DNA from: Geobacter sp. AOG2
GTDB taxonomy: Bacteria; Desulfobacterota; Desulfuromonadia; Geobacterales; Pseudopelobacteraceae
Direction of reading: 5' to 3'
DNA length: 64,000 nucleotides
Assembly: GCF_019972295.1 (NCBI RefSeq)
Contig: NZ_BLJA01000001.1
Span: forward strand, 404,049 to 468,048
The notes under the pieces were generated by a model. It did no database searches. It saw only the letters and a list, made by a program, of their open reading frames with translations, and had not been told where the DNA came from. The translations under genes and the position numbers were made by a program. Positions within the stretch are counted from its first letter, which is position 1. The number at the start of each line of letters is the position of its first letter. This document shows, one piece after another, positions 33,510 to 42,727 of this stretch.

Positions 33510-33524
33510 CATTCAATAGACCTG

Positions 33525-33620
33525 CTTATCGAGAGTGGTGGAGGGAAAGGCCCTGTGAAACCACAGCAACCGGCCAATGAGGCGTCAGGTGCTAATTCCT
33601 GCCGAAAGGCAAAGATGAGG
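33525..33620 (+). ncRNA. SAM-I (S-box) riboswitch
   Basis: The S-box core is clear: CTTATC at 33525-33530 pairs with GATGAG at 33614-33619 (P1), with GAGAGTGGTGGAGGGA, GGCCCTGTGAAACC, CAGCAACC and GGTGCTAATTCCTGC in the canonical order. It binds S-adenosylmethionine and should lower metX expression when SAM is high. Confidence 0.96.
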
Positions 33621-33646
33621 GGTGTGCTGTAACCGTTGCGTTTCAG

Positions 33647-38028: not shown

Positions 38029-39123
38029 CTACAAAAAGGCATCGATGGCCGGGAAGTCGATATAGCGTTCTGAGATTGAGTTGATCAGTTCGATTTTTTC
38101 CCGGTCCTCCGGTCCGATCTTTGAGACGTGTTCCCTGAGACGGTGGAAAACCTCCGAAGAGGTCTCCTCGATGCGGATATAGGGGATCTTGCTGTCGTCA
38201 AGGATTTGCCGGGTGATGAGCGACATGGGGGCATGGCCGCTGATGACCAGGCCGGCCAAACGTTTTCTGAAATCCGGTATGTGATGCAATGAAGAAGCGG
38301 TGACGATCAACTCATCCCGCGAACTGGTCACAATGAGCAGCGTGGAGTCTTCAAGGTGATCGATGACCCGCTGTGAAGATGCCGCCCCCAACTGGATGGT
38401 ATGGCAAATACGGCTTCTGTCGTCGGGGTTCCCTTTGAGCGACTGTCCGAGCATTACAGCCACATGTTGCAGGGTCGGATGGGCCAGGATCGGATTATAG
38501 TCAAAGGCGCTTGTCACCAGGAGGTCGGTTCCGCTAAAGGCCTTCTTGAGGTAGGCAAGGGAGCGTTCGCGTTTTTCCGGCACCAGCTTGTTGACCATGA
38601 TGACGCGGACGTCGGCCTTTTCCCGCTCATACAGCGCAAGGTTCAGTTCTACGGCGTCAATCACATTGCCGATGCCGCCGTTGGTAACCATGAGCACCGG
38701 TGCGCCCGCTATGGTGGCAACCTGGGCGTTGTTTGCGCCGACCACCGAGCCGACGCCGCCGTGGCCGGCTCCTTCTATGATCAGAAAGTCGTATTTTTGC
38801 TCCAGTTCGTGAATCGCCCCGGCGATGAGGGTGCGGGGTATTTCCGGGGAAATCTTGCCGTCCAGAAATTTTCTGGTCGAGCCGGGAGTGAGGGTCATGG
38901 GCGACATGAGGTGTGCGTCGCTATCCAGGCCGTAAACGCTGGCCATCATGGCGGCATCCATATCCATGGTCAGGCCGTTGTACTCGATGCATTTGGGGCC
39001 GAGCGGTTTCACGAAGCCGACCCGCTCATACTTTTTACGCGCCAGATGCATGAGCGACAGGCTGATGGTGGTCTTGCCGCAATGTTGGCCGGTGGCGGCT
39101 ATGAATATCTTTTTACAGGCCAT
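38029..39123 (-). CDS. BioD-like P-loop ATPase with DRTGG domain (phosphotransacetylase N-terminal-like)
   Basis: About 364 residues. Residues 1-210 form a dethiobiotin-synthetase/CobQ-type P-loop domain (FIAATGQHCGKTTISLSL, IIEGAGHGGVGSVVGANNAQVATIAGAPVLMV), then a DRTGG-like domain (ILAHPTLQHVAVMLGQSL, LIVTSSRDELIVTASSLHHIPDFRKRLAGLVISGHAP). The layout equals the N-terminal regulatory part of long phosphotransacetylases but without the catalytic domain. Such stand-alone proteins are of unknown function. ATG 39123 was preferred; a GTG at 39156 has no spacing from its ribosome site. Confidence 0.8.
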   Translation of the reverse strand: MACKKIFIAATGQHCGKTTISLSLMHLARKKYERVGFVKPLGPKCIEYNGLTMDMDAAMMASVYGLDSDAHLMSPMTLTPGSTRKFLDGKISPEIPRTLIAGAIHELEQKYDFLIIEGAGHGGVGSVVGANNAQVATIAGAPVLMVTNGGIGNVIDAVELNLALYEREKADVRVIMVNKLVPEKRERSLAYLKKAFSGTDLLVTSAFDYNPILAHPTLQHVAVMLGQSLKGNPDDRSRICHTIQLGAASSQRVIDHLEDSTLLIVTSSRDELIVTASSLHHIPDFRKRLAGLVISGHAPMSLITRQILDDSKIPYIRIEETSSEVFHRLREHVSKIGPEDREKIELINSISERYIDFPAIDAFL

Positions 39124-39183
39124 GAGTCTTTTTTCATCCTCTCGAAACCATGTCACTCCGGCTGGCTGCCGCAGAGACTTTGG

Positions 39184-39510
39184 TCATGCCCCTTCAAGAA
39201 ACCGCAGGAAGTGCTCTTCACCGGCCTGGAAGCGCAGAAACCTTACCCCCATGCCGCTTTTCTTGGCCAGATGAAAGAGGTTTTGCGGTACCTTCTTTGC
39301 CCACATGACCCGCGCGTCAACCTGAATCAGGTTGTCATCAACGGTAAATTCGATTCTGATCCTGCTGTTGGGTGGGCAGACATTGGCGGTTCTGATGAAC
39401 ATGCCGGTCGTCGATACGTCCTCGCTGAATGCCACACGGCTTGCGCCGTCGATGCCGAAATGGACGGTCAAACGTTTTTTAAGCCGCCGTATAATTCTCT
39501 TTTCGGTCAT
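39184..39510 (-). CDS. PilZ domain protein (c-di-GMP receptor)
   Basis: A 108-residue single-domain PilZ protein. The RRLKKR motif near the N-terminus (R-x3-R type) and EDVSTTGMFI (D/N-x-S-x-x-G) are both present, so c-di-GMP binding is likely; the barrel continues with RIRIEFTVDDNLIQVDARVMWAKK. Such proteins modulate motility, exopolysaccharide or transcription. Its neighbours include motAB, but on a separate transcript. Partner unknown. Confidence 0.85.
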   Translation of the reverse strand: MTEKRIIRRLKKRLTVHFGIDGASRVAFSEDVSTTGMFIRTANVCPPNSRIRIEFTVDDNLIQVDARVMWAKKVPQNLFHLAKKSGMGVRFLRFQAGEEHFLRFLEGA

Positions 39511-39685
39511 TATGCCCTCAAACTGAAGTGCTTATTACGCAATGAAAGCGCCACGACTATACCACAAAACAACGGATGCGGGAGAAGATTTGAAAAGGTG
39601 GGGAATTTTACTTGCCACTTTCCCGGATTATGGCGGCATAAATTCAATTGACAGACCCGCGCCAATACACTAGGTTAATGTAAAC

Positions 39686-39765
39686 GCTGGGGGAGTTTCG
39701 ACTGAGAGCGGCAATGCCCGCGACCCTTAGTACCTGATCCGGGTAATGCCGGCGTAGGGAAGCGC
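39686..39765 (+). ncRNA. TPP riboswitch (THI element)
   Basis: The conserved thi box is present in order: CTGGGGGAGT, ACTGAGAGCGG, GACCCTTAGTACCTGATCC and GGGTAATGCCGGCGTAGGGAA. It binds thiamine pyrophosphate and controls thiSG-thiE downstream. The region 39511-39685 upstream has no other recognised feature. Confidence 0.96.
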
Positions 39766-39781
39766 AGACATCCGATGTTCC

Positions 39782-39803
39782 AAGCCGCTTCCGCGGCTTT
39801 TTT
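39782..39803 (+). terminator. Terminator of the TPP riboswitch expression platform
   Basis: AAGCCGC-TTCC-GCGGCTT followed by a T-run (T39798-39803) lies 16 bases after the aptamer and 76 before thiS. This implies transcriptional attenuation by TPP. Confidence 0.85.
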
Positions 39804-39878
39804 GCGTTTTAGGAGGCCGTTCAACAGCCTGTTCACGACCCGTGCAGTCAGTTCGTACCGGGCGCTGAAGGAGAAAAC

Positions 39879-40079
39879 ATGCACATTACACTGAATGGCG
39901 AGACCATCGACATCGCCGATGGCAGCACGGTCGCCGGCCTTCTGGAGCATCTGCAGCTGCCGCGTGAGCGGGTGGCGGTGGAGGTCAATCTGGATATCGT
40001 TCCCAAGGCGGCCTATGACGGTCACGGGTTGTCCGAGGGAGACAGGATAGAGATCGTCCACTTCGTGGGCGGGGGATAA
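39879..40079 (+). CDS. thiS: Sulfur carrier protein ThiS
   Basis: A 66-residue ubiquitin-fold protein ending in VHFVGGG, the di-glycine tail that is thiocarboxylated to donate sulfur for the thiazole ring. AAGGAG precedes ATG 39879. It is the first gene after the TPP riboswitch, 86 bases before thiG. Confidence 0.94.
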   Translation: MHITLNGETIDIADGSTVAGLLEHLQLPRERVAVEVNLDIVPKAAYDGHGLSEGDRIEIVHFVGGG

Positions 40080-40165: not shown

Positions 40166-40945
40166 ATGACAACCAAAAACGATACATGGACGATTGCCGG
40201 CCGCGAATTTACCTCACGCCTGATGGTGGGTACCGGCAAATACGCCAGCTTCCAGCAGACGGCCGAAGCCCTGGAGGCTTCGGGGGCCGAGATCATTACC
40301 GTTGCGGTGCGGCGGGTCAACCTGGACCGGAGCAAGGAATCACTCCTGGATTATATCGACCCCAAGAAATACACCCTGCTCCCCAACACCGCGGGCTGCT
40401 ACACGGCCGACGACGCCATACGCACCTGCCGCCTGGCCAGGGAGGCGGGCATGTCGGATTTTGTCAAGCTTGAGGTGCTGGGAGACGAGAAGACCCTCTT
40501 CCCGGACAACGAGGAGTTGCTCAAGGCCGCCAGGATTCTGGTCAAGGAGGGTTTCACCGTACTCCCCTACACCAGCGACGACGTGATCATGTGCCGAAAG
40601 CTGGAGGATATCGGCTGTGCCGCGGTCATGCCGCTGGGTGCCCCCATCGGCAGCGGCCTGGGTATTCGTAACCCCTATAACATCAGGATCATTCTGGAAA
40701 CGGTCAAGATTCCGGTGATCGTGGACGCCGGGGTCGGCTCGGCCTCCGATGCGGCCGTCGCCATGGAGTTGGGCTGCGCCGGCGTGCTTATGAACACCGC
40801 CATCGCCGGAGCCCAGGACCCTATTGCCATGGCCCGCGCCATGAAGCTGGCCGTGGAGGCGGGGCGGCTGTCCTATAAGGCCGGACGGATCCCCCGCAAG
40901 CTCTACGCGAACGCATCCAGCCCGCTGGACGGCATGATTGCCTAG
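40166..40945 (+). CDS. thiG: Thiazole synthase ThiG
   Basis: A 259-residue TIM barrel: [20 protein letters not shown], the catalytic Lys in [30 protein letters not shown] and [30 protein letters not shown]. It makes the thiazole phosphate from deoxyxylulose phosphate, ThiS-thiocarboxylate and dehydroglycine. AAGGAGAGG precedes ATG 40166. No thiH, thiO or thiF is in the window. Confidence 0.96.
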
Positions 40946-41170
40946 TTTCCGCCCGGAAAGGGTTCTTTTCCGCCCATGCGGCGTCAATCTTCGGGCTTGC
41001 TTGTGCGGCGTACCGATGTACGCCTCCGCGCAATCCCTTGATTTCCTTGCCTGGACGAAAAATTCCTCCTTTCCGAATCGGAAACTGCTCGTTTCTAATT
41101 GTGACGCATTCACCCAAGGGCGTGACCGGTTGCGCCCCGATGATCTTTGTCGCATGTTTCCCGTGTCCCC
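40946..41170. other. Intergenic gap with imperfect palindrome between thiG and the thiE fusion
   Basis: This spacer carries GGCGTAC-CGAT-GTACGCC at about 41007-41024, flanked by TCAATCTTCGGG and CCCTTGATTTCC. The architecture resembles families A and B (GCGTAGC-N3-GCTACGC core) but the sequence differs. No gene or terminator with a T-run is evident, so read-through from thiG is possible. Confidence 0.5.
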
Positions 41171-42727
41171 ATGAAACCAGTTGATTTTTCCCTGTACCTG
41201 ATTACCGACCGCAGCCAGACCGCGGGCCGGCCGCTTGTGGACGTGGTGCGCGCCGCACTGTCCGGTGGGGTGCGCGCCGTGCAACTGCGGGAGAAGGATC
41301 TGCCGGATGATGAATATACTGAGCTTGCCCTGGCGCTCAGGCACGTAACCAGGGAGTTCGGAGCGCGGCTCTTCATCAACAGCCGGGTCGATATCGCCCT
41401 GGCCGTGGGAGCCGACGGCGTCCATCTGGGGACGGCCTCCGCACCCGTGGCCGAGGTGCGCGGGCGGTGCGGCAAGGGCATGATGATCGGCTATTCCTGC
41501 CACGGTCTGGCAGAAGCGCGCCGCGCGGTGCATGACGGGGCGGACTTCATCACCTTCGGCCCGGTCTTTGCGACCCCCTCCAAGGCGGCTTATGGGGAGC
41601 CGCTGGGGTGTGCAGACTTGCAGCGGGCGGTGGAGGCGTTGCCGGTCCCGGTGTTTGCCCTCGGCGGCGTGAAGCCTGAAAACATGACCGCCGTGCGGGG
41701 GACGGGCTGCAGCCACGTGGCCCTGATCTCTGCCGTCAGTGCCGCCCCCGATCCCTGCCGCGCGGCCCGGGAACTCCTGGCAAGTCTGGGAAACCCGTTG
41801 CCCACGGCCGTCCATCACGAGTTGCGCATCCACTCCTATGGCCATTACCTGCGGCGGCGCTTCGACTGCCGGGTCAGCAAGGTCAACGTGGATGCCGGTT
41901 TTACCTGCCCCAACCGGGACGGCAGCAAAGGGACCGGCGGCTGCATCTACTGTAACAACGTCTCCTTCTCCCCCAAGGACACCCAGTCGGTCATTCCCCT
42001 GGAAGAACAACTCTCTGCCGGCATGGCCTACCATCGGCACCGTCTCGGCTCCGAGAAGTTCATCGTCTATTTTCAAAAATACACCAATACCTACGCCTCC
42101 GTGGATGTTTTGGCCGACCTCTACCGTCGCGCCCTGGCCCATCCGGACGTGGTCGGCATCTCGGTCGGCACCCGGCCCGACTCTCTGACCGACGAGGCAT
42201 TGGAGCTGTTGACGGAGATCGCCCGTGACCGTTACGTCTGTCTGGAGTTGGGGCTCCAATCCGGTGATGACGCCATCCTGGAGCGTATCAATCGTGGTCA
42301 TACCGTGGACGATTTCGTCGCGGCCGTGCAGCGGGCGGCGGGACGAAATTTCGATATCTGCGCCCACCTGATTCATGGCTTTCCCGGTGAACGGCCGGAG
42401 GATTTTCTTAAAAGCCCCGAGCTGATCGCCTCCCTGCCGATCGACTCGGTCAAGCTCCATCAACTCCACGCCGTCGAAGGGACCGAATTGGCCGCCATGT
42501 ACCGCCGTGGCGAGTTCGTACCTCTCACCCTGGAAAGATACGTGGCCTCGGCCGCCGATTTTCTGGAGCGCCTGCCGGCCCGCATCACGGTACAGCGGCT
42601 GTACGGCTCGGCGCCGCTGGCGATCAGGGTGGCGCCCCAATGGGGGCTGAAGAACAACCAGATGTGGTTCGCGGTGGTCAACGAACTGCGGCGGCGCGGC
42701 ACGTGGCAGGGGTATCGGTTCAATTGA
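41171..42727 (+). CDS. thiE: Thiamine-phosphate synthase (ThiE) fused in frame to a TIGR01212/YhcC-type radical SAM protein
   Basis: A 518-residue fusion. Residues 1-205 are ThiE: LYLITDRSQTAGRPLVDVV, VQLREKDLPDDEY, LFINSRVDIALAVGADGVHLG, DFITFGPVFATPSKAAYGEPLG and VFALGGVKPENM. After a short linker (LGNPLPTAVHHELRIHSYGHYLRRRF) comes a radical SAM protein with the unusual cluster motif C-x11-C-x2-C (CPNRDGSKGTGGCIYC), then YFQKYTNTYAS, VGISVGTRPDSL and CLELGLQSGDDAILERINRGH, all typical of TIGR01212. No stop and no ribosome site lies at the junction (about 41785-41815). ThiE joins HMP-PP and thiazole phosphate. The radical SAM half has no known substrate. Confidence 0.88.
   Translation: MKPVDFSLYLITDRSQTAGRPLVDVVRAALSGGVRAVQLREKDLPDDEYTELALALRHVTREFGARLFINSRVDIALAVGADGVHLGTASAPVAEVRGRCGKGMMIGYSCHGLAEARRAVHDGADFITFGPVFATPSKAAYGEPLGCADLQRAVEALPVPVFALGGVKPENMTAVRGTGCSHVALISAVSAAPDPCRAARELLASLGNPLPTAVHHELRIHSYGHYLRRRFDCRVSKVNVDAGFTCPNRDGSKGTGGCIYCNNVSFSPKDTQSVIPLEEQLSAGMAYHRHRLGSEKFIVYFQKYTNTYASVDVLADLYRRALAHPDVVGISVGTRPDSLTDEALELLTEIARDRYVCLELGLQSGDDAILERINRGHTVDDFVAAVQRAAGRNFDICAHLIHGFPGERPEDFLKSPELIASLPIDSVKLHQLHAVEGTELAAMYRRGEFVPLTLERYVASAADFLERLPARITVQRLYGSAPLAIRVAPQWGLKNNQMWFAVVNELRRRGTWQGYRFN

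Follow-up and report, generated by a model that had tools for sequence, protein, structure and literature searches.

A clade of radical SAM (rSAM) proteins within the TIGR01212 family, one member of which forms the second half of a fusion gene in the window (the whole 64,000-nucleotide stretch of DNA analysed here), probably supplies dehydroglycine to the thiazole synthase ThiG and thereby replaces ThiH. Gene content, gene order and alignments make a strong case that a new enzyme would act here at a known step; dehydroglycine as its product, and the chemistry by which it would form, are what I infer from that pattern.

Results

The genome to which the window belongs is a single contig of 3.92 Mb. 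Its genus is probably Oryzomonas (Geobacteraceae, Geobacterales); the rSAM protein of another genome of this genus, G002, is identical to that of Oryzomonas japonica Red96. An open reading frame of 518 residues at 41171-42727 (+) carries a ThiE-family half and an rSAM half in one frame, with no internal stop (Table 1). Residues 7-202 match the ThiE model TIGR00693 with 189 bits (NCBIfam cut-off 145) and residues 220-517 match TIGR01212 with 312 bits (NCBIfam cut-off 180), the cluster cysteines of the rSAM half being residues 246, 258 and 261. The predicted structure (mean pLDDT 88.5, pTM 0.72) comprises two folds, ThiE/TenI-like in the N-terminal part and Elp3-like in the C-terminal part.

Table 1. 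Features of the thi operon and its surroundings in the window.
Feature	Position	Strand	Evidence or remark
SAM riboswitch	33523-33621		RF00162, 78.1 bits
AAA_26/DRTGG-domain protein	38029-39156	-	adjoins the thi operon, on the opposite strand
PilZ gene	39184-39510	-	beside the AAA_26/DRTGG gene
TPP riboswitch aptamer	39679-39777	+	RF00059, 69.3 bits (gathering score 54.3)
Terminator-like hairpin with T-rich tail, directly 3' of the aptamer	39782-39809	+	hairpin 39782-39799
thiS, sulfur carrier protein	39879-40079	+	TIGR01683, 84.9 bits (cut-off 37.45)
thiG, thiazole synthase, rSAM-paired type	40166-40945	+	PF05690, 393 bits; ThiG tree
Fusion, N-terminal half, ThiE-family, TenI-like at two catalytic positions	41171-41800	+	TIGR00693, residue alignments, fold
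Fusion, C-terminal half, TIGR01212-family rSAM of the thi clade, proposed dehydroglycine synthase	41801-42727	+	TIGR01212, 312 bits

The cluster, in which no thiH was found, is headed by a TPP riboswitch, as are 8 of the 11 relative loci scanned. The terminator-like hairpin behind the aptamer, one of five sites found where 3.2 were expected by chance, is presumably the expression platform of the riboswitch. Between thiG and the fusion lies a gap of 225 bp (40946-41170); the gap between match ends is at most 61 bp in all 22 thiG-thiE-rSAM loci outside the genus. The longer gap may hold a promoter or a start of its own. By eye, no Shine-Dalgarno sequence was seen upstream of the fusion's ATG, nor a ribosome-binding motif upstream of an in-frame TTG at 41822, in principle a possible internal start. 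A sequence-only reading of this DNA had placed the fusion under the TPP riboswitch; the aptamer does head thiS, thiG and the fusion, but given the 225-bp gap and the lack of a visible Shine-Dalgarno sequence, control of the fusion itself is presumed from gene order.

Across the order, the rSAM gene is tied to thiG. Less than 4 kb downstream of a listed thiG and on the same strand lie 134 of the 141 rSAM genes; among the seven exceptions, the position of thiG is absent from the listing in four (G349, G377, G406 and G425), thiG lies on another contig than the rSAM gene in two (G395 and G416), and one is a second rSAM copy of G008, which starts 18 bp behind thiC (ThiC 1002 bits, cut-off 650). Clusters of the form thiG-rSAM or thiS-thiG-rSAM that have no thiE also occur (L093, L146, L192, L223, L224 and L225), which makes ThiG, and not ThiE, the rSAM protein's constant partner. 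Extra ThiGs without an adjoining rSAM gene are found in G015, G382 and G387 (L215, L216 and L217), each of which has the rSAM gene elsewhere in the genome, and in G013 the contig stops directly after an extra ThiG. The extra ThiG of L215 adjoins, by eye, a gene for an Mrp-type ATPase.

The distribution of the clade is complementary to that of ThiH. With the curated cut-offs applied throughout for ThiH (TIGR02351) and ThiO (TIGR02352), no ThiH was found in the window's own genome, where the best match reaches 28.1 bits against a cut-off of 380 and falls at another gene. Among the matches listed for 57 relatives, five genomes are without the thi clade (G014, G032, G038, G041 and G051), and ThiH passes its cut-off in exactly those five, a comparison set down beforehand; of the other 52, 50 have a full rSAM gene and two a copy cut by a contig end (G016 and G029). 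Among the same matches ThiO reached its cut-off in none of the 57 (best 73 bits against 250.8; 53.6 bits in the window's own genome).

The same complementarity is seen in the 141 genomes of the order. Among the matches listed, ThiG is present in 136, the thi-clade rSAM at E <= 1e-100 in 127 (a few copies being partial) and ThiH over its cut-off in eight; the 136 ThiG genomes divide into 126 with the rSAM only, seven with ThiH only, one with both and two in which the locus is cut by a contig end. The genome with both, G418, is a metagenome-assembled genome with 7% contamination, and each of the two genes adjoins a ThiG of its own type. In G029 and G423 the contig edges fall exactly where the rSAM gene would be, the first half of it being visible in G029. 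Five genomes without ThiG (G394, G422, G426, G373 and G376) have neither the rSAM nor ThiH at these thresholds, and among the matches listed for the 141 genomes no rSAM genome without ThiG was found. The ThiH-only genomes come from two genera, each in a different family (g2 of f1 and g12 of f4), and their ThiGs stand apart in the tree, which makes at least two independent switches likely.

Below the cut-off, 14 of the 127 rSAM genomes have ThiH-family matches of 250-293 bits at 16 places, which I read as HydG-type; in G008, G015 and G024 two such genes stand side by side. No thi genes lie beside them at the five places examined (L046-L048, L253 and L254). HydG also makes dehydroglycine.

Three of the ThiH genomes (G014, G032 and G429) preserve a trace of the exchange. 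Their thi operon reads thiS-thiE-thiG'-thiH, where thiS and thiE share 75-78% DNA identity with those of G020, an rSAM-bearing genome of the same genus, and ThiG' is of the ThiH-paired type. Behind thiH, at a distance of 43-65 bp, sits a decayed rSAM tail of 37-54 residues that is 80-85% identical to the intact protein of G020; the remainder of the rSAM gene gave no match at these loci. This layout indicates that thiG and the rSAM gene were exchanged together for thiG' and thiH. Among the 70 rows of a ThiG tree (built from matches of at least 200 residues, partner labels assigned by hand from the loci), a branch with a value of 100 sets off all 16 ThiH-paired ThiGs to one side, and the rSAM-paired ThiGs lie within a group of 37 (91).

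Since the rSAM protein swaps with ThiH nearly one for one, and with a matching ThiG, the same product is the most likely one. It is conceivable, and I think unlikely, that the rSAM protein serves thiazole synthesis with some other product, acting on ThiG or ThiS, replacing ThiF or repairing a damaged intermediate. The accessible portion of a 2004 study (PMC545781) reports Geobacter species as lacking not only thiH but also thiF and thiM, which would suit such a role, and describes a fused thiED in Geobacter and Desulfuromonas. Against it, the counterpart of the rSAM protein in the switch is ThiH, which makes dehydroglycine according to the available part of PMC9046217, and ThiF-like genes, counted by a rough motif scan of the thi loci (a stricter pattern matched nothing anywhere), occur at four of four ThiH loci in the wider class and at none of the seven in the order. 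The swap of rSAM and ThiH within the order is thus not tied to a linked thiF, and supply of dehydroglycine remains the preferred reading.

The thi-linked genes are distinct from the housekeeping member of their family. In a tree of the TIGR01212 family (143 rows, of which 139 are different; matches shorter than 230 residues dropped and the best match per locus kept), they make up a clade of 44 rows (99); another clade (100) holds nine unlinked TIGR01212 genes of the order, and the remaining rows fall mostly by phylum. The thi clade and the housekeeping gene of the order (44 and nine tree rows) are therefore not in the same orthologous group. The window's own genome has such a second, unfused TIGR01212 gene (L002/L104), 42% identical and scoring 371 bits to TIGR01212. 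The 143-row alignment has 25 positions with a residue fixed to at least 95% within the thi clade and found in under 30% elsewhere. The family's cluster cysteines are present, as C36, C48 and C51 in the rSAM half, and at least 97% conserved over all rows. Net charge as a sign of tRNA binding was uninformative, the mean of the thi clade (+2.3) not being below those of its relatives (+0.9 and +0.2). The genes of family f32 (L112-L115, L117, L119 and L122) are sister to the thi rSAM clade (99); no thi genes were found within 1.5 kb of them at any of the seven loci (at L115 the ORFs were read by eye).

The paralogue bears on what the family is known to do. The sequence-only reading had taken TIGR01212 proteins to be without a known substrate, which no longer holds: the family's current NCBIfam name is 'tRNA modification radical SAM protein MnmL/YtqA', and MnmL is listed with MnmC for nm5s2U34 in the table of a 2025 review, as far as its available text goes (PMC12548931). 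The nine unlinked genes of the order are presumably the true MnmL. It is distinctly improbable that the thi-linked protein is a second tRNA modifier of MnmL type that merely shares the operon, perhaps coupling wobble modification to the supply of thiamine or glutamyl-tRNA. It does pass the TIGR01212 (MnmL/YtqA) cut-off, and gltX, the gene for the enzyme that charges tRNA-Glu, is found close to the cluster at 11 of 25 thiG-rSAM loci; in the other 14, some of which end early, gltX was not found. Against this reading, a separate TIGR01212 gene is present in at least 52 of the 57 relatives, among them all five ThiH genomes, and nine such genes form their own clade in the tree. Nor would a tRNA modifier account for the lack of the thi copy in genomes with ThiH and in genomes without ThiG, or for the scar beside thiH.

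The fusion itself is a narrow event. Among the matches listed, its frame is open in all six genomes of the genus, and dN/dS across them is 0.19-0.38 for the ThiE half, 0.10-0.29 for the 25-codon junction and 0.09-0.14 for the rSAM half, so it is not a sequencing error; with both domains over their cut-offs, the in-frame fusion claimed by the sequence-only reading is confirmed. That reading had also proposed a search for the same fusion in other genomes, and outside the genus none was seen among the 141 rSAM matches of the order, a result that holds for copies not truncated at a contig end. G355, G360 and G370, the sole frames longer than 500 amino acids outside the genus, were rejected as further fusions, thiE lying in another frame in all three. 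Elsewhere in the order thiE, where present, is a separate neighbour of the rSAM gene; two genes that already stood side by side were joined recently, and the fusion is, as such, incidental. Set against the worry that the two domains might be separate and unlinked in all relatives, they are separate outside the genus, yet still neighbours there, and fused within it. That the fusion is a chance read-through of adjacent genes, meaningless for the rSAM family, is highly improbable, although it is compatible with replacement of ThiH: the fusion is confined to one genus of six genomes, and where thi-clade genes were examined elsewhere, thiE is a distinct gene, often in another frame, so chance may account for the fusion event, yet genomes throughout the order keep the gene neighbourhood and purifying selection acts more strongly on the rSAM half than on the ThiE half. 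The operon, rather than a fusion restricted to one genus, gives the functional clue. Strong support for the earlier suggestion of a role for the rSAM half in thiamine synthesis comes from linkage within the operon, the complementary distribution of ThiH and the scar, not from the fusion.

The ThiE-family half raises a question of its own. The genome encodes another ThiE, fused to ThiD, that keeps NDD and GQDD, whereas the half in the window has NSR and GTAS where Bacillus subtilis ThiE has NDD and GQED. Two Asp residues of these motifs, at positions read from alignments, bind Mg-pyrophosphate in B. subtilis ThiE. The second Asp, at the GQ(E/D)D position, is replaced by Ser, Gly or Ala in all 41 operon copies aligned (these rows are only the loci with an operon thiE, and at least four are the same gene under two locus ids), and the first varies, being Ser in the window; both positions are thus lost in the window copy and only the second throughout the order. 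The operon ThiE domains in ThiH genomes look no different, so the loss of Asp is independent of the rSAM protein. Against the NCBIfam TenI model, the N-terminal half scores 108.9 bits, below the cut-off of 251, and the target-normalised TM-scores of its predicted structure are 0.85 to TenI (1yad) and 0.91 to ThiE (1xi3). Although HMM and nearest fold say ThiE, the residues suggest that the operon domain may be a TenI-type thiazole tautomerase instead.

Among the matches listed for a sample of 297 genomes of the phylum, the thi clade occurs only in its own order, in seven genomes, and was not found in the 289 genomes from outside it; the thi clade scores at least 580 bits and the rest of the family no more than 348. 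A scan of named genomes matched at least 590 stretches, and of the best 80 of these 13 are of the thi clade, all 13 beside thiG; the other 67 loci (38-50% identity) have neither thiG nor thiS within the stretch, and one has a thiE-like gene (L155). With at least 590 stretches matched, the clade may occur beyond the order.

ThiG is present in 110 of the 297 genomes, and 21 of the 110 have no ThiH-family match at 1e-60: the seven thi-clade genomes and 14 others, of which seven have ThiO over its cut-off. This leaves seven ThiG genomes (G074, G226, G294, G314, G111, G090 and G250) with no ThiH match at 1e-60, no ThiO over cut-off and no thi clade, so lack of the known enzymes is not in itself a pointer to the thi rSAM. 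Three of the seven have weaker ThiO-like matches of 111-155 bits. Their loci (L239-L245) are of the form thiS-thiG-thiE. In other families a ThiH/HydG-like gene lies upstream of thiS-thiG with no ThiH over cut-off (L246:2943-4415, also L247, L249 and L250); the one scanned, that of L246, is HydG-type, with 387 bits (cut-off 312) against 311 bits to ThiH. HydG-like lyases may be the dehydroglycine synthases at loci of this type.

Discussion

Under the reading preferred here, the thi-clade TIGR01212 protein would take over the job of ThiH and make dehydroglycine (2-iminoacetate), a short-lived compound that ThiG would join with DXP and the ThiS thiocarboxylate to give the thiazole of vitamin B1. 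Most likely, the 5'-deoxyadenosyl radical would abstract hydrogen at the alpha carbon of glycine, and one electron would then be lost. To act on the group of cmnm5U in tRNA that stems from glycine, MnmL would have to make an attack of the same kind. The fusion in Oryzomonas to what may be a TenI-type tautomerase, which would act just after ThiG, would tie together the steps before and after ThiG. Taken as a whole, the more specific proposal of a third class of dehydroglycine synthase, namely an oxygen-independent rSAM glycine dehydrogenase from TIGR01212 that attacks free glycine, hands its product to ThiG and in Oryzomonas is fused to a tautomerase, seems to me evenly balanced between right and wrong.

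The proposal would offer, for the iron-reducing Geobacter group, a candidate for a missing step: thiH is reported as absent from Geobacter (PMC545781, in the portion available), yet G. sulfurreducens PCA, whose thi locus is not among the loci read here, is cultured in vitamin-free medium according to excerpts of PMC8357294 and PMC3500873. If it is true, a further way to the thiazole precursor of B1 exists alongside ThiO and ThiH, a family of tRNA-modifying radical enzymes gave rise to a small-molecule enzyme, and the family-model name MnmL/YtqA should be corrected for the thi-clade genes. In a search of openly licensed literature by title and start of abstract, in which the family names were not paired with thiamine, I found no paper on TIGR01212 in thiamine synthesis or on replacement of thiH in Geobacter.

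Among known systems the closest counterpart is ThiH, likewise an rSAM enzyme encoded beside thiG in thi operons and complementary in distribution; it belongs to a different radical SAM family, however, and is paired with another type of ThiG. The available part of PMC9046217 has ThiH making dehydroglycine, which is hydrolysed in water, and passing it to ThiG, with which it is reported to form a complex. Unlike ThiH, the thi-clade protein is probably not a tyrosine lyase. ThiO, an FAD glycine oxidase that would give the same product from glycine, is an unrelated protein and needs oxygen (PMC9046217, in the same part). With MnmL/YtqA the thi clade has in common the TIGR01212 HMM, the CysX11CysX2Cys motif and, judged by sequence and fold, an Elp3-like core; it differs as a separate paralogous clade with 25 clade-specific positions that is linked to thiG and co-exists with another TIGR01212 copy. 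The side chain of cmnm5U is derived from glycine, and the oxidase domain of MnmC and ThiO are related FAD enzymes. By analogy, MnmL may stand to MnmC as the thi clade stands to ThiO, both attacking the alpha carbon of a glycine unit. The N-terminal half, finally, shares its fold with TenI and ThiE and passes the ThiE HMM, but it differs from ThiE in having no Asp at the GQ(E/D)D position in any operon copy, the other ThiE being fused to ThiD elsewhere in the genome.
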